From positions 1 through 32,546 of the forward strand of contig CANRPE010000017.1 of NCBI GenBank assembly GCA_947632405.1: DNA of 32,546 nucleotides, read 5' to 3'. A program made the translations under genes and the position numbers. A model generated the notes under the pieces. It ran no database searches. It had not been told where the DNA came from and was given only the letters and a program-made list of their open reading frames with translations. Of this stretch, positions 25,390 to 30,275 are shown piece by piece. This DNA is from an uncultured Bacilli bacterium. Lineage in GTDB: Bacteria; Bacillota_I; Bacilli_A; RF39; UBA660. Position 1 is the stretch's first letter; each line of letters opens with the position of its first letter.

Positions 25390-25926
25390 TTATATTGAAT
25401 ACGTAAGAGTACCACCCACTTGAGCTCCAACTGGAATTTCTTGATAAACCCAAGCAATAGATAAACTACCACTATCAACCATACATAAGTTCATTATTGC
25501 TTGATTTGAAAATACTATATTTTGACAAACACGTTCTTTTGGAGCATATTTTGAATCAATATGAATTAAAGATTTAGTAGTAGCAACTGCAACTTTTTCC
25601 GTAACTTTAATAGTATATGCTGTTACTGTAACAACATGTCCTACTCTATAAACAGTAAATTTTATACCTTGCCATGTTGTTGTTCCAAGAAGTTCATAAC
25701 TGCTTAAACTATTTTCTAAATCTGTAACACTAGAAGATATATTACTTATTTTACTACATGTTCCATCTATTGCTGCTTGAACATTAGTTACTCCTAATTT
25801 TGAATTATCGGTATAACTTACATCTCTACTATTTATTACCGTTGCTGCTACTACATAACTTGTTCCTGCTGAAATAATTACTCCTATTATTATTCCTACT
25901 ATTAATTTATAATTTTTCTTTATCAT
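25390..25926 (-). CDS. Array member 0: shared N-terminal module with an unrelated C-terminal domain
   Basis: The 178-aa protein starts like the four proteins upstream (MIKKNYKLIVGIIIG, a membrane/signal segment, then V-x-Y-x-N-x-S-x-L and N-V-Q-x-A-I-D), so residues 1-60 are homologous to them. The rest (a short coiled segment SSSVTDLENSLSS, then a strand-rich domain from about 80 with TWQGIKFTVYRVGHVVTVTAYTI) is unlike them and carries none of the YWTMS or GARAVVEI landmarks. It resembles a phage-type or appendage beta domain only in general texture; I do not assign it. It has the same promoter, inverted repeat and Shine-Dalgarno as the other members. A signal anchor and ectodomain imply a surface protein. 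Confidence 0.6.
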   Translation of the reverse strand: MIKKNYKLIVGIIIGVIISAGTSYVVAATVINSRDVSYTDNSKLGVTNVQAAIDGTCSKISNISSSVTDLENSLSSYELLGTTTWQGIKFTVYRVGHVVTVTAYTIKVTEKVAVATTKSLIHIDSKYAPKERVCQNIVFSNQAIMNLCMVDSGSLSIAWVYQEIPVGAQVGGTLTYSI

Positions 25927-25993
25927 CTTAGATCACTCACCTATTTTTATTTATCTAAGATTATTATACCCTCCCCCGTTTATATTTTTGCAA
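25925..25993 (-). promoter_or_regulatory. Cassette promoter 0 with interrupted G tract and inverted repeat
   Basis: On the minus strand: TTGCAA (25988-25993), a 19-bp spacer that ends in GGGGGAGGG (25969-25977), TATAAT (25963-25968), then inverted-repeat arms ATCTTAGAT (25953-25961) and ATCTAAGAT (25925-25933) with a 19-nt loop holding AGGTG. The A inside the G tract distinguishes it from the other four copies. Confidence 0.7.
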
Positions 25994-25994
25994 G

Positions 25995-26019
25995 AAAAAT
26001 TTACAACGAAGTGCAATTT
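25995..26019 (-). terminator. Degenerate hairpin after array member 1
   Basis: The position matches the terminators of the other members and the TTCG is kept, but one arm has changed (TTGTAAA rather than GTGTAAT), so the stem is imperfect. A T run follows. Confidence 0.45.
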
Positions 26020-26950
26020 ATGTTTTGTTTATTTCGACAACGGCACGTGCACCCATATGATTGGCAATCATTGTATCATATGTTATATCTCCAGCCCTAC
26101 GAACTATCCAAATAGCATCGTGATAAGATGCAGAAATGGATACTGACATTGTCCAGTAATCAAAATTATATTCACCAGATTCATCTAATGTATTGTCGTT
26201 ATAACTACCACCAAAATTTATCGAATTATACAAATAATTGAACATAAAATCAGGACATGTATTATGTATATCATATTTACATCCTGTACTTACTACCTCT
26301 AGAGCAGTAATCATTCGTGCTCTTACTTTTTTAGTTTCTAAAATATAATTATTATCTTCACATTTTATCTTTTTATCTTCTGTTAAAGTACATCCTGTAA
26401 ATTTATTCCCATTTAATTCAGTTACACCTGGAGTATATTCTAGTACATTTACATTTGTCCATGTAGAGGTTGCTTGTTCTAAAGCTTTTAATATTATAAG
26501 TGGACCTTTTGAACTGCTACTATCTTTTTCATTCCAAATTATATTTCTTACCGTATTTTCTCTTTGCTGCATCGTTATTGTTGTTCCATTATCATGTAAT
26601 ACATAAAAATAATGATATTCGTTTTCTTTGACATAATATTTTATTACTGTTCCTTGAGAACATGTTTTACCTTTTTTATAACAATCTGTTTTAACACAGG
26701 TTTTTTCTTCTCCATTTATACATTTTGGATCTTCTTCACTATATTCATATGCAGTTATTAAGTCTTTATTAAAACTTTTATCATACACTTCATCTATGGC
26801 ATCTTGAACATTATCTGCTACTAGATTTGAGCTTTCATTACTATATCCAACATTTATACTTGAGATGATAGTTGCTGCGTATACTGTTGTTCCTGTTAAT
26901 ATTGCTCCTATTATTATTCCTACTATCAATTTATAATTTCTCTTTATCAT
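26018..26950 (-). CDS. Array member 1: surface protein with variable C-terminal segment
   Basis: This 310-aa protein belongs to a family of four paralogs. Residues 1-26 are a signal/anchor peptide ending in VYAAT; 27-58 is the shared linker (NVGYSNESSNLVADNVQDAIDEVYDKSF). A Cys-rich stretch follows (CINGEEKTCVKTDCYKKGKTC), then IKYYVKENEYHYFYVL, and a long domain with ARMITALEV, CPDFMFNYLY and GGSYNDNT, ending in DYWTMS - variable segment - GARAVVEINK. The pattern of aromatic, Trp and Gly near the C-terminus recalls the C-type-lectin/FGE-like folds found in DUF6273-type proteins; this is inference. The variable segment is 30 codons, two more than in the others, and the gene lacks two insertions seen in its sisters, so it is the most divergent. 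ATG is at 26950 with AGGTG inside the inverted repeat loop. Confidence 0.75.
   Translation of the reverse strand: MIKRNYKLIVGIIIGAILTGTTVYAATIISSINVGYSNESSNLVADNVQDAIDEVYDKSFNKDLITAYEYSEEDPKCINGEEKTCVKTDCYKKGKTCSQGTVIKYYVKENEYHYFYVLHDNGTTITMQQRENTVRNIIWNEKDSSSSKGPLIILKALEQATSTWTNVNVLEYTPGVTELNGNKFTGCTLTEDKKIKCEDNNYILETKKVRARMITALEVVSTGCKYDIHNTCPDFMFNYLYNSINFGGSYNDNTLDESGEYNFDYWTMSVSISASYHDAIWIVRRAGDITYDTMIANHMGARAVVEINKT
26054..26143 (-). other. Hypervariable segment of array member 1
   Basis: Thirty codons between the conserved YWTMS (before) and GARAVVEI (after). This copy aligns poorly with the other three and is two codons longer. Confidence 0.6.
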
Positions 26951-27017
26951 CTTAGATCACTCACCTATTTTTATTTATCTAAGATTATTATACCCCCCCC
27001 CGTTTATATTTTTGCAA
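26949..27017 (-). promoter_or_regulatory. Cassette promoter 1 with G9 tract and inverted repeat
   Basis: On the minus strand: TTGCAA (27012-27017), 19-bp spacer ending in nine G (26993-27001), TATAAT (26987-26992), inverted-repeat arms at 26977-26985 and 26949-26957 with a 19-nt loop containing AGGTG. The second arm enters the ATG at 26950. Confidence 0.75.
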
Positions 27018-27018
27018 G

Positions 27019-27043
27019 AAAAAATTACACCGAAGTGCAATTT
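27019..27043 (-). terminator. TTCG hairpin at the end of array member 2
   Basis: A 9-bp stem (27022-27030 with 27035-27043) with TTCG loop and T run; the stop codon forms part of the first arm. Confidence 0.7.
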
Positions 27044-28043
27044 ATGGCTTGGTTATTTCGACAACAGCTCGTGCACCAATGCCAGTATCAAGAACAAGAT
27101 CGCTGTATAAATAGCCAGCTCGATTTATATACCATACAAAAGTATAGCCACCAGAACGAGCAGACATGGTCCAATAATCATAATCATATGCTCCATTTTC
27201 ATTTAATGTATCATTATTATAACTTCCTCCATAATTTTTTGATTGCCATAAGTAGTTATGCATAAAGTCTGGACATGAACCGTGATTATAAGAATCTAAA
27301 CTTGGTGATATAACTCTGCTATCAGTAGATCCATCTTTGTATACTAAGCAACCTGTTGATGAGGCTTCTTGTGCTGTGATCATTCTTGCTCTAGCTTTTC
27401 TTGTTCCTAATACTGAATTTGTATATGTATTTGTTTCGCATCTTATTTTATAATCAGAAGTTTCACTTGCTGTATATGTACAACCTGTATAAGCATTTTC
27501 ATATAATGTTGTTACTCCTGGTTCATATTCTAAGACATTTACATTTACCCAGGTGGAGGTTGCTTGTTCTAAAGCTGGTAAGATTGTATCTGGTCCTTTA
27601 GTATTATCATTTGTTCCTGCATGCCATGGTATATTTCTTATTGTATTTTCTCTTTGTTGCATTGTTATTGTTGTTCCATCATCACGTAAAACGTAAAAGT
27701 AATGAAATTCACTATCATTTACATAGTATTTTATTACTGTTCCTTGAGAACATGTTTTTCCCTTTTTATAACAATCTGTTTTTACACACGTCTTTTCTTC
27801 GCCATTTATACATTTATTTGGTTCTTGTTCACTATATTCATAGGCTACTATCAAAGGTTTTGAAAAACTTTTGTCATACACTTCATCTATGGCATCTTGA
27901 ACATTATCTGCTATTAATTTTGAATCTTCATTACTATATTCTACATTTATACTTGATATTATGGTTGCGGCATATACTGTTGTTCCTGTTAATATTGCTC
28001 CTATTATTATTCCTACTATTAATTTATAATTTCTCCTTATCAT
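27042..28043 (-). CDS. Array member 2: surface protein with variable C-terminal segment
   Basis: A 333-aa paralog of the other members. The N-terminal signal/anchor and NVQDAIDEVYDKSF linker, the Cys-rich KCINGEEKTCVKTDCYKKGKTC block and the domain with MQQRENTIRN, KGPDTILPALEQATSTW, KARARMITAQEAS, and GSCPDFMHNYLWQSKNYGGSYNNDTLN are nearly identical to those of members 3 and 4. Differences collect in the last tenth of the protein, between YDYWTMS and GARAVVEITKP. At least eight Cys are present, suggesting disulfide-stabilised folding outside the cell. Start at ATG 28043 with AGGTG 7 nt upstream. It is probably anchored by the uncleaved N-terminal helix or secreted after cleavage near VYAAT. 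Function is unknown; adhesin or surface receptor is a guess. Confidence 0.78.
   Translation of the reverse strand: MIRRNYKLIVGIIIGAILTGTTVYAATIISSINVEYSNEDSKLIADNVQDAIDEVYDKSFSKPLIVAYEYSEQEPNKCINGEEKTCVKTDCYKKGKTCSQGTVIKYYVNDSEFHYFYVLRDDGTTITMQQRENTIRNIPWHAGTNDNTKGPDTILPALEQATSTWVNVNVLEYEPGVTTLYENAYTGCTYTASETSDYKIRCETNTYTNSVLGTRKARARMITAQEASSTGCLVYKDGSTDSRVISPSLDSYNHGSCPDFMHNYLWQSKNYGGSYNNDTLNENGAYDYDYWTMSARSGGYTFVWYINRAGYLYSDLVLDTGIGARAVVEITKP
27078..27161 (-). other. Hypervariable segment of array member 2
   Basis: Twenty-eight codons between YWTMS and GARAVVEI. By hand alignment it shares 11 of 28 residues with member 3 and 6 of 28 with member 4, while the flanks are almost unchanged. Confidence 0.7.
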
Positions 28044-28106
28044 CTTAGATCACCTATTTTTATTTATCTAAGATTATTATACCCCCCCCCGTTTGTAATT
28101 TTGCAA
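28042..28106 (-). promoter_or_regulatory. Cassette promoter 2 with G9 tract and inverted repeat
   Basis: On the minus strand: TTGCAA (28101-28106), 19-bp spacer ending in nine G (28082-28090), TATAAT (28076-28081), inverted-repeat arms 28066-28074 and 28042-28050 with a 15-nt loop holding AGGTG. Confidence 0.75.
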
Positions 28107-28132
28107 GAAAAAATTGCACCGAAGTGTAATTT
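28107..28132 (-). terminator. TTCG hairpin at the end of array member 3
   Basis: Stem 28111-28119 with 28124-28132, TTCG loop, one A-C mismatch as RNA, T run after. It overlaps the stop codon. Confidence 0.65.
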
Positions 28133-29126
28133 ATGGCTTAGTTATTTCGACGACTGCTCGCGCACCACTGCCAGTATAAGTAGTTGCTGGGTCACTCAAA
28201 TTACCACCACGATTCACATACCATGCAGAAGTAGTATTGCCAGTGTCAGCAGACATGGTCCAATATTCATAATCATATGATTCATTTTCATTTACTGTAT
28301 CGTTATTATAACTACCACCATAATTTTTTGATTGATATAAATAGTTATGCATCCAGTCTGGACATGAGCCTTGGTTATATGCATTTATACTTGGTGGTAT
28401 GACTCTATTGTCTGTTTTTCCATCTTTAGCTACTAAACAGCCTGTTGCTGAGGTTTCTTGTGCTGTGATCATTCTAGCACGAGCTTTTCTTATTTCTAAT
28501 ACAGTACTTGTATATGCGTTCTTACTGCATCTTATTTTATAATCAGAAGTCATGCTTTTAGTATATGTACAACCCGTATTGGCATTTTCATATAAATTAG
28601 TTACTCCTGGCTCATATTCTAGTACATTTACATTTACCCAGGTGGAAGTTGCTGCTTCTAGTTGTGGCAAGATTGTATCAGGTCCTTTACTATTATCATT
28701 TGCTCCTGCATGCCATGGTATATTTCTTATTGTATTTTCTCGTTGCTGCATGATTATCTTAGTGCCATCATCTCTTAAAACGTAAAAGTAATGATATTCA
28801 TTATCTTTGACATAATATTTGATTACTGTTCCTTGTTTACATGTTTTTCCTTTTTTATAACAATCTGTTTTTACACATGTTTTTTCTTCTCCATTTATAC
28901 ATTTTGGTTCTTGTTCACTATATTCATAAGCAGCTATTGGATTTTTTGAAAAACTTTTATCATATACTTCGTCTATAGCTTCTTGAACATTATCTGCTAC
29001 TAATTTAGAACTCTCATTACTATATCCTACATTTATACTTGATATTATAGTTGCGGCATATACGGTTGTTCCTGCTAATAGTAAACCCAATATAAATGCA
29101 GTTATTACTTTTATTCTTTCTTTCAT
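28131..29126 (-). CDS. Array member 3: surface protein with variable C-terminal segment
   Basis: A 331-aa paralog. The signal peptide differs from its sisters (MKERIKVITAFILGLLLAG in place of MIKRNYKLIVGIIIGAIL), but from TTVYAATIISSINVGYSN onward the proteins are nearly the same, so only the first 20 residues have been replaced. The Cys-rich block, MQQRENTIRNIPWHAGANDNSKG, LEAATSTWVNVNVLEYEPG, ARMITAQETSATGC and CPDWMHNYLYQSKNYGG follow. The tail is YEYWTMS - variable - GARAVVEITKP. The changed signal segment points to past recombination or gene conversion among array members and related genes elsewhere. Same promoter, inverted repeat and Shine-Dalgarno as members 2 and 4. Confidence 0.78.
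   Translation of the reverse strand: MKERIKVITAFILGLLLAGTTVYAATIISSINVGYSNESSKLVADNVQEAIDEVYDKSFSKNPIAAYEYSEQEPKCINGEEKTCVKTDCYKKGKTCKQGTVIKYYVKDNEYHYFYVLRDDGTKIIMQQRENTIRNIPWHAGANDNSKGPDTILPQLEAATSTWVNVNVLEYEPGVTNLYENANTGCTYTKSMTSDYKIRCSKNAYTSTVLEIRKARARMITAQETSATGCLVAKDGKTDNRVIPPSINAYNQGSCPDWMHNYLYQSKNYGGSYNNDTVNENESYDYEYWTMSADTGNTTSAWYVNRGGNLSDPATTYTGSGARAVVEITKP
28167..28250 (-). other. Hypervariable segment of array member 3
   Basis: Twenty-eight codons; shares 8 of 28 residues with member 4 and 11 of 28 with member 2 by hand alignment. Many codons are NNT or NNC, with changes at the first two bases. Confidence 0.7.
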
Positions 29127-29189
29127 CTTAGATCACCTATTTTTATTTATCTAAGATTATTATACCCCCCCCCGTTTATAATTTTGCAA
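29125..29189 (-). promoter_or_regulatory. Cassette promoter 3 with G9 tract and inverted repeat
   Basis: On the minus strand: TTGCAA (29184-29189), 19-bp spacer ending in nine G (29165-29173), TATAAT (29159-29164), inverted-repeat arms 29149-29157 and 29125-29133 with a 15-nt loop holding AGGTG. Confidence 0.75.
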
Positions 29190-29215
29190 GAAAAAATTAC
29201 ACCAAAGTGCAATTT
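29190..29215 (-). terminator. Hairpin at the end of array member 4
   Basis: Stem 29194-29202 with 29207-29215; the loop is TTTG instead of TTCG. T run follows. It overlaps the stop codon. Confidence 0.65.
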
Positions 29216-30212
29216 ATGGTTTGGTTATTTCAACAACAGCGCGTGCACCAGTGCGTAAACCAGTAGTAACGTAATTTGTCAAAATGCCTACCCGACTCAC
29301 TATCAACGCATTAGTAGGACCTACAGAGCTAGTAGACATGGTCCAGTAATCATAATCATATTCTCCTTTTTCATTTTTTGTATCGTTATTATAACTTCCA
29401 CCAAAACTTTTTGATTGCCATAAGTAATTATGCATAAAGTCTGGACACGAACCGTGATTATATTTATCTATGCTTGGTGGTATAACTCTATCATCTATCG
29501 TTCCAGCTTTACCACCTAAACATCCTGTTGCTGAGGCTTCTTGTGCTGTTATCATTCTTGCTCGTGCTTTTCTTATGCCTAATACTGAACTTGTATATGT
29601 GTTTGTTTCGCATTTTATTTTATAGTTAGAAGTTGTGCTTTCAGTCCATGTACAACCTGTATTGGCATTTTCATATAATGTTGTTACTCCTGGTGTATAC
29701 TCTAGTACATTTACATTTACCCAGGTTGAAGTTGCTGCTTCTAATTGTGGCAAGATTGTATCAGGGCCTTTACTATTATCATTTTCTCCTGCATGCCATG
29801 CTATATTTCTTATTGTATTTTCTCTTTGTTGCATCGTTATCTTAGTGCCATCATCACGTAAAACGTAAAAGTAATGATATTCGTTTTCTTTGACATAATA
29901 TTTTATTACTGTTCCTTGAGAACAAGTTTTACCTTTTTTATAACAATCTGTTTTTACACATGTCTTTTCTTCTCCATTTATACATTTTGGTTCTTGTTCA
30001 CTATATTCATATGCTGTTATTAATTCTTTATTAAAACTTTTATCATATACTTCATCTATTGCTTCTTGAACATTATCTGCTACTAGCTTTGAACTTTCAT
30101 TACTATATCCAACATTTATACTTGATATTATGGTTGCGGCATATACTGTTGTTCCTGCTAATATTGCTCCTATTATTATCCCTACTATTAATTTATAATT
30201 TCTCTTTATCAT
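29214..30212 (-). CDS. Array member 4: surface protein with variable C-terminal segment
   Basis: A 332-aa paralog and the first of the array in transcription order. Signal/anchor MIKRNYKLIVGIIIGAILAG, linker NVQEAIDEVYDKSF, Cys-rich CINGEEKTCVKTDCYKKGKTC, then IKYYVKENEYHYFYVLRDDG, MQQRENTIRNIAWHAGEND, LEYTPGVTTLYENANTGC, ARMITAQEASATGC, CPDFMHNYLWQSKSFGG and the tail YDYWTMS - variable - GARAVVEITKP. In the variable segment the Trp seen in members 2 and 3 (AWYV or VWYI) is replaced (ALIV), so even aromatic core positions can change. No enzyme motif is recognised; the fold may be C-type-lectin-like. Confidence 0.78.
   Translation of the reverse strand: MIKRNYKLIVGIIIGAILAGTTVYAATIISSINVGYSNESSKLVADNVQEAIDEVYDKSFNKELITAYEYSEQEPKCINGEEKTCVKTDCYKKGKTCSQGTVIKYYVKENEYHYFYVLRDDGTKITMQQRENTIRNIAWHAGENDNSKGPDTILPQLEAATSTWVNVNVLEYTPGVTTLYENANTGCTWTESTTSNYKIKCETNTYTSSVLGIRKARARMITAQEASATGCLGGKAGTIDDRVIPPSIDKYNHGSCPDFMHNYLWQSKSFGGSYNNDTKNEKGEYDYDYWTMSTSSVGPTNALIVSRVGILTNYVTTGLRTGARAVVEITKP
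29250..29333 (-). other. Hypervariable segment of array member 4
   Basis: Twenty-eight codons between YWTMS and GARAVVEI. It shares only 6 of 28 residues with member 2 and 8 of 28 with member 3 by hand alignment. Confidence 0.7.
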
Positions 30213-30275
30213 CTTAGATCACCTATTTTTATTTATCTAAGATTATTATACCCCCCCCCGTTTGTATTTTTGCAA
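30211..30275 (-). promoter_or_regulatory. Cassette promoter 4 with G9 tract and inverted repeat
   Basis: On the minus strand: TTGCAA (30270-30275), 19-bp spacer ending in nine G (30251-30259), TATAAT (30245-30250), inverted-repeat arms 30235-30243 and 30211-30219 with a 15-nt loop holding AGGTG. Confidence 0.75.

Follow-up and report, generated by a model that had tools for sequence, protein, structure and literature searches.

The window analysed here, a stretch of 32,546 nt, contains a tandem array of four paralogous genes on the minus strand, recognized as open reading frames (ORFs) belonging to one paralog family. They encode proteins of 310 (member 1, 26018..26950), 333 (member 2, 27042..28043), 331 (member 3, 28131..29126) and 332 amino acids (member 4, 29214..30212); member 1 is the most diverged of the four, and member 4 has an N-terminus that looks exported and a C-terminal variable region (VR). 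The VRs of members 4, 3 and 2 occupy 28 codons (29250..29333, 28167..28250 and 27078..27161, respectively) and that of member 1 occupies 30 (26054..26143), in agreement with the coordinates in the preliminary description. Each VR closes with an IMH-like end on the same strand, at 29233..29249 in member 4, where it codes for GARAVV, and at 28150..28166, 27061..27077 and 26037..26053 in members 3, 2 and 1. All four genes are also provided with a promoter that carries a run of G, with the form TTGCAA-N10-G9-TATAAT in member 4 (30245..30275, minus strand, as are the others), and lying at 29159..29189, 28076..28106 and 26987..27017 in members 3, 2 and 1. An interrupted version (GGGGGAGGG; 25963..25993, minus strand) belongs to the next gene. 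The 178-amino-acid ORF at 25390..25926 (minus strand) has the family promoter and N-terminal leader, with a different C-terminal domain and no VR; it is a module-swapped member of the family.

Outside the VR, the amino-acid identity of the window paralogs is 69–86%, so that their earlier characterization as nearly identical was overstated; within the VR it is 14–39%. For members 2–4, codon positions 1, 2 and 3 are the same in all three copies at 10, 8 and 13 of the 28 codons that separate YWTMS from GARAVV, an exact recount that agrees with the 13 third and eight second bases reported previously. Likewise, the 6–11 shared residues and the abundance of NNT/NNC codons were borne out, with pairwise identities of 11, 6 and 8 of 28 residues, and 23, 22 and 18 NNY codons of 28. 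Amongst 55 full-length paralogs, nucleotide diversity at codon positions 1, 2 and 3 is 0.52, 0.49 and 0.43 in the VR and 0.17, 0.15 and 0.30 in the gene body. The hypervariability of the VR is real and far above chance.

The preliminary description had called for a search of the full genome for a reverse transcriptase (RT) and a template repeat (TR). Both are present, together with Avd, on a separate contig of the same genome, C3, which bears a complete diversity-generating retroelement (DGR) consisting of a noncoding TR, a MutS-like (MSL) gene, Avd and a DGR-type RT. The RT is the one RVT_1 match in the genome; in the PDB it matches the DGR RT 8ub7 best (E=1e-29), and it has the motifs IGNMTSQ and YMDD. 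Avd exceeds the Pfam cut-off for bAvd (PF22296) and matches the NCBIfam entry DivGenRetAVD with E=2e-14. A further ORF of the cassette matches MutS_I (PF01624) and is of the MSL type, a known DGR accessory. The TR lies upstream of MSL–Avd–RT (L002:8752-8855) and is the only full match in the genome. The part at L002:8752-8838 (C3:16751-16837) contains 33 adenines and 13 AAY codons, none of its codons being convertible to a stop; the coding capacity computed from it is ~1e19 proteins per VR. The TR region is strongly structured (z=-5.95), and neither it nor the window has a match in Rfam. Its GC-rich end, GGTGCGCGTGCCGTCGT, is the IMH; 13 genome sites besides the TR match it with 0–1 mismatch, and the window ends deviate from it at two (members 1 and 3) or four (members 2 and 4) of 17 bases.

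There are 59 GARAVV-type ends in the genome, and the VRs of 56 can be aligned to this one TR. In these 56, template adenines are changed at 914 of 1838 positions and other bases at 754 of 3007 (p=6e-68). The bias is far sharper in the 14 youngest VRs, with 219/462 adenines (47%) and 35/756 other bases (4.6%) changed (p=3e-72), and two VRs have 17 adenine changes each and none at any other base. Tested one VR at a time, the bias reaches p<0.05 in 37 of the 56 and is Bonferroni-significant in 22, and the gene bodies, used as a control, have the opposite bias (0.134 for A, 0.219 for non-A). Conversion showed no gradient starting at the 3' end of the VR. Adenine specificity as such would also be expected of some other adenine-targeting mutator, such as a deaminase; however, the latter should produce mainly A to G, and in the 14 youngest VRs the replacements by G, T and C number 89, 74 and 56. 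As the RT and Avd of a DGR are also present, we regard such a mutator as having practically no claim.

Cassette-shuffling systems, of which vlsE, pilE and TprK are examples, suggest another route to variable ends, in which short-tract gene conversion among paralogs combined with divergent selection operates without reverse transcription. Tandem arrays are suited to recombination, and the neighbouring genes C3:15408 and C3:16494 have part of their VR in common, so that some exchange does occur. Donor cassettes would not, however, confine the differences to the adenines of a single noncoding repeat next to an RT, and the young VRs match the template at non-A sites and differ from it at A sites. 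Nor, leaving aside the TR and the VRs, was any further template-like sequence found in the genome. Gene conversion is therefore hardly credible as the source of the variation.

It is also necessary to consider whether the DGR acts on remote genes at all. Diversification might be restricted to the target adjoining the RT, with the copies that moved away carrying frozen snapshots of its VR. The age of a VR and that of its gene body are indeed moderately correlated (rho 0.49), and the three genes nearest to the cis target in their bodies (93–95% identical) also have young VRs. Against this, ten genes on other contigs have bodies diverged by 21–32% at third positions and VRs only 0–11% off the TR. 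The edge is also abrupt: in the young set, third-position divergence is 0.049 in the VR, 0.218 in the 20 codons directly upstream (p=3e-11) and 0.223 in the body. The frozen-copy explanation is contradicted for these ten genes, and we consider it very unlikely overall. That young VRs sit in old-bodied genes shows rewriting to be limited to the VR and to work in trans.

The window genes give a weaker signal. Mismatches to the C3 TR affect 18/33 adenines and 16/54 other bases in member 4 (p=0.019), 16/33 and 10/54 in member 3 (p=0.0034), and 22/33 and 16/54 in member 2 (p=0.00076); in member 1, the TR-specific signal has gone (20/33 and 31/54, p=0.47). Because the bias in three members is only moderate and member 1 has lost it, present-day rewriting of the window genes has not been demonstrated. 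We infer that these copies are older DGR targets that are little rewritten at present. Support from a second species comes from the congener G003, which has an orthologous cassette with its own TR (90% identity between the two species in the TR region); its VRs follow that TR, with seven A and no non-A changes in one, and 14 A and one non-A changes in another. In both species, the cis targets have a hairpin of 9–10 bp on the downstream side of the VR, not the same hairpin but in the same position. In most other copies the hairpin is terminator-like, and the one following the window genes resembles a standard terminator.

We conclude, with very high confidence, that the window genes belong to a large family encoding exported surface proteins, and that the one DGR on C3 diversifies the C-terminal ends of these proteins in trans. 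What this rests on is a complete cassette with its template, differences specific to adenines, rewriting limited to the VR, targets on many contigs, and the same arrangement in the congener. The preliminary description had proposed targets of such a trans-acting system, while noting that the window itself has no RT or template, and this proposal is supported. It was to be refuted by the absence of an RT or template together with no excess variation among strains, or by differences not enriched at template adenines; as far as these could be tested, neither was the case. The biochemical steps are inferred by analogy with known DGRs. The template RNA would be reverse transcribed by an RT–Avd complex, with random errors at adenines, and the cDNA would take the place of the VR in which a target gene ends, guided there by the shared GC-rich end; one DGR would serve many targets in this manner. 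Surface display of the targets is likewise inferred.

The target family comprises ~55 full-length genes, ~5% of the 1.35-Mb genome. It should be noted that this genome is a metagenome-assembled draft, and that one genome per species and no reads were available. Strain mixing was rejected as the origin of the copies: no pair of target bodies exceeds 94.5% identity, and the genome is of usual size for its genus. The fold of the targets was not resolved. AlphaFold gave a pLDDT of 37 for the full target and 44 for the C-terminal 238 residues (five input sequences), and a profile of 32 targets compared with PDB and Pfam returned nothing reliable and no C-type-lectin (CLec) match. A search of a viral collection gave distant RTs only and, for the target, a short leader motif only; there is therefore no sign of a phage element.

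Almost all copies of the family have nine G within a 19-nt spacer between the -35 and -10 elements, an arrangement like that of poly-G phase variation. Genome-wide, there are 76–78 poly-G promoters (a control pattern gave 0 matches), the spacer being 19 nt in 64 of 66 true spacers, whereas canonical promoters of the same genome have 17 nt in 14 of 24 and 19 nt in none. It is somewhat more likely than not, although inferred without transcription data, that slippage of the G9 tract allows single copies to be switched on and off. Alternatively, the tract might be a fixed promoter element, either a regulator site or part of a 19-nt spacer that needs a MerR-type activator. G9 is nearly invariant over ~70 copies although the neighbouring spacer bases vary, the assembly shows no variation in length other than a few G8, and a spacer of 19 nt is found again in other genera. 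Yet in other genera the tract differs in length among copies (G8–G10 in genome G140, G10–G11 in genome G067), and the length of a poly-G spacer controls transcription of Treponema pallidum tp0126 and Neisseria porA (PMC7864442). A fixed element is thus possible, if not what we would expect. If slippage does occur, copies would go on and off, and the part of the diversified repertoire that a cell displays would keep changing. Opinion could go equally either way on the fuller proposal that two systems of variation are joined, a trans-acting DGR rewriting dozens of surface proteins and poly-G tracts slipping from a spacer two bases too long (19 rather than 17 nt), with few copies on at once. A further point against switching is that, across the bacterial family, poly-G promoters and Avd are not associated (Avd in 6/17 poly-G genomes, 51/145 overall).

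Most known DGRs have a single target or a small number of them. The RT described here appears to serve dozens, giving ~5% of a reduced genome over to a diversified repertoire, and the target family exceeds every DGR target set found in the literature. The co-occurrence of the DGR with poly-G promoters raises the question of whether a bacterium combines making new binding ends with choosing the copy displayed; if so, this would be a repertoire for surface variation that both generates new sequences and selects amongst them. DGR genes are common in the bacterial family, as judged from Avd in 51 of 145 genomes, which makes it suited to studying trans targeting and the retirement of targets. Metagenome surveys limited to the neighbourhood of the RT overlook remote targets (PMC8144416).

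A close comparison is with Treponema denticola, in which one RT and TR serve 2–7 targets per genome, including remote TvpA-like ones (PMC4891356). Both cases involve several remote surface lipoproteins with a C-terminal VR, presumed old leftovers being among the targets in each; by contrast, there are 56 TR-alignable VRs here (22 significant singly after Bonferroni correction), and poly-G promoters are not reported in T. denticola. Target paralogs are also dispersed through the genome in cyanobacteria, Trichodesmium erythraeum having 18 TR/VR-homologous loci for two DGRs, although cyanobacterial targets are mostly cytosolic and kinase-type, and fewer per DGR (PMC8867640, PMC7517822). In Thiohalocapsa PB-PSB1, action in trans was similarly inferred, the VRs there agreeing with a distant TR at every non-A site, but nine loci serve 15 targets there, which are putative sensor proteins of conflict systems (PMC10907252). 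The DGR of Bordetella phage BPP-1 (PDB 8ub7) has a homologous RT and Avd, the same TR/VR logic and a GC-rich VR end; it is phage-borne with a single cis target, whereas the present system is cellular and includes the MSL gene. Finally, homopolymeric G is found in the promoters of T. pallidum tp0126 and tprL and of Neisseria porA, lying between -35 and -10 in tp0126 and porA; those are separate single genes, whereas here ~75 copies, with a modal spacer of 19 nt, are joined to a family diversified by a DGR (PMC7864442).

The four tandem paralogs of the window (minus strand, 26018-30212) diverge strongly in a stretch of 28-30 codons near the C-terminus, as had been described, with protein identities of 14-39% in this variable region (VR). 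For members 2-4, the counts in the preliminary description are exact, both for residues (6-11 of 28 identical) and for codon positions 1, 2 and 3, which agree in all copies at 10, 8 and 13 of 28 codons. It overstated the remainder of the genes, the bodies, as nearly identical; their protein identity is 69-86%, although the contrast with the VR is genuine. Probable past rewriting also accounts for the odd codon pattern, since template adenines fall at the first two positions of AAY codons. The suggestion that these genes are targets of a diversity-generating retroelement (DGR) acting in trans is borne out by a complete DGR on contig C3 of the same genome, by adenine-biased VRs and by a rewriting edge at the VR in remote genes.

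The genome that includes the window contig C17 is a 1.35-Mb draft, 96.5% complete. On C3, a target gene (the cis target) is followed by a noncoding template repeat (TR; L002:8752-8838, with a GC-rich end, GGTGCGCGTGCCGTCGT, extending to 8855), a 141-aa MutS-domain-I ORF, a 114-aa Avd and a 377-aa reverse transcriptase (RT). Known DGR accessories include MutS_I (MutS-like, MSL) and Avd (PMC10053308). The Avd here is above the Pfam cut-off and matches the NCBIfam model DivGenRetAVD with E=2e-14, though under that model's cut-off. Apart from the RT, nothing in the genome matches RVT_1, and the TR sequence likewise occurs once; the best solved relative of the RT is 8ub7, which we take to be the Bordetella DGR RT. 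Close relatives of the RT belong to uncultured Bacilli/Tenericutes/Erysipelotrichaceae MAGs, from which the lineage of this genome is inferred, and the RT is accompanied by MSL homologs in 29 and by Avd homologs in 19 of 56 related loci. No change of A in the TR codons can yield a stop, and the TR region of this genome folds more strongly than shuffled sequences (z=-5.95), as expected for a DGR RNA. In one related DGR locus (L077:7742-8815) the likely target combines a prepilin-type N-terminus (N_methyl) with a VR-like C-terminus.

When 56 VRs were aligned codon-wise to the TR with a base-neutral score, 49.7% of cells were changed at template A and 25.1% at other bases (p=6e-68). Restricting the count to the 14 VRs with no more than four non-A mismatches, the young ones, gives 47.4% and 4.6% (p=3e-72). 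Bodies compared with the cis target, as a negative control, change less at A (0.134) than elsewhere (0.219). Tested singly, 37 VRs reach p<0.05 and 22 pass Bonferroni correction; 16 satisfy the criterion of Roux et al. that at least 75% of mismatches fall on A (PMC8144416). Two VRs, C3:16494, which adjoins the TR, and C25:2117, on a different contig, are changed at A only, 17 times in each. A deaminase is excluded as the mutator by the changes of A to G, T and C in the young VRs, at 89:74:56. Across the genome, VRs come in lengths (84, 87, 90, 93, up to 120 nt) that are offset from the TR length in steps of three, a wider spread than plain DGR copying would give; template slippage in AAC/ACT runs, or earlier TR versions, may be responsible. 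Two very old VRs (C39:1449 and C19:18979) nevertheless match the TR perfectly over the 17 bases of their ends, which may be a relic of very brief conversion tracts.

Mere duplication of the cis gene should have left copies whose VR and body are of equal age. Among the 14 young VRs used for this test, however, third-position divergence amounts to 4.9% within the VR (relative to the TR), 21.8% over the adjoining 20 upstream codons and 22.3% for the body (p=3e-11), and in 10 of the 14 genes (contigs C7, C8, C10, C11, C13, C24 and C37) the bodies are clearly old. Judged from sequence, the sharp edge at the VR is the trace that replacement of the VR alone would be expected to leave. Identity between any two target bodies is at most 94.5%, which rules out strain duplicates as the source of the copies.

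The cassette found in the congener G003 is orthologous to this one and its TR is different; the noncoding TR flanks show ~90% conservation between these species. Measured against the G003 TR, two G003 VRs carry 7 A and no other changes, and 14 A and one other, respectively; all six VRs pooled give 85/174 changes at A and 61/348 at non-A (p=3e-13). Both G003 RT copies (L162:6527-7549 and L163) have a stop close to the C-terminus, despite VRs that look recently rewritten; the stops may reflect decay or assembly error.

Window members 2, 3 and 4 retain adenine bias (p=0.0008, 0.003 and 0.019), with non-A changes at 10-16 of 54, chiefly at third positions. No such bias is left in member 1 (p=0.47), and in each of the four VR ends 2-4 of the 17 bases depart from the TR end. 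On these grounds the window genes are probably older family members, rewritten in the past and now rarely or never. The hairpin after them is terminator-like, whereas that after the cis target is of a non-terminator type in both species. Predicted models did not resolve a C-type-lectin fold in the targets, and their putative surface location, for which the only basis is an N-terminal hydrophobic segment, is not settled. A 178-aa gene at 25390-25926 of the window has the family leader and promoter (with an interrupted poly-G, GGGGGAGGG) and a different C-terminal domain, which represents module swapping inside the array.

Nearly all target copies are preceded by TTGCAA-N10-GGGGGGGGG-TATAAT, found at 76-78 places in the genome; a reversed control pattern had no matches. 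Of 66 spacers, 64 measure 19 nt; two additional readings of 11 nt arise from a second TTGCAA within the spacer. Among 24 perfect TTGACA/TATAAT promoters of the same genome, by contrast, 14 have a 17-nt spacer and none has one of 19 nt. In Treponema pallidum tp0126, with poly-G at the same promoter site, transcription is highest at 17 nt (PMC7864442). From this optimum and the 19-nt spacers it is inferred, in the absence of expression data, that most copies are held in a weak state and that slippage could turn single copies on. Within the genome, no variation in G-tract length was found beyond a few G8; one of these very few exceptions is the promoter of the cis target (C3:15469-15498; G8, spacer 18), the gene with the youngest VR. 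Apart from this genome, in which they are most numerous, such promoters number up to 34 per genome, and 17 of the 145 family genomes have them (G140, G067, G126, G139 and others, L191-L210, as G(8-11)-TATAAT). In other genera the number of Gs differs although spacers mostly total 18-19 nt, and the promoters stand before several unrelated multi-copy exported protein families. Avd is no commoner in poly-G genomes (6/17) than overall (51/145), and the two systems are therefore separable. In G140 (L191-L196) a multi-copy family behind poly-G promoters has a VR-like C-terminus, WWTESARSxDS..VW.V.GY...GFRPAIDVLK, hypervariable at codon positions 1 and 2; Avd was not found in this genome, and its only RT sits within a 628-aa frame. 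The family is possibly an orphaned DGR target set.

The target family comprises 82 tblastn matches and 55 full-length targets, an estimated ~5% of the genome at ~1.1 kb per copy. Fewer targets are reported for Treponema denticola (2-7; PMC4891356) and Thiohalocapsa (15 for nine loci; PMC10907252), and Trichodesmium, whose two DGRs account for 18 loci (PMC8867640), likewise falls short of the 56 TR-alignable VRs here. By the strictest count (16-22) the set is on a par with the largest found in the open-licence literature; by TR-alignable VRs it is about three times that size, with one RT serving all.
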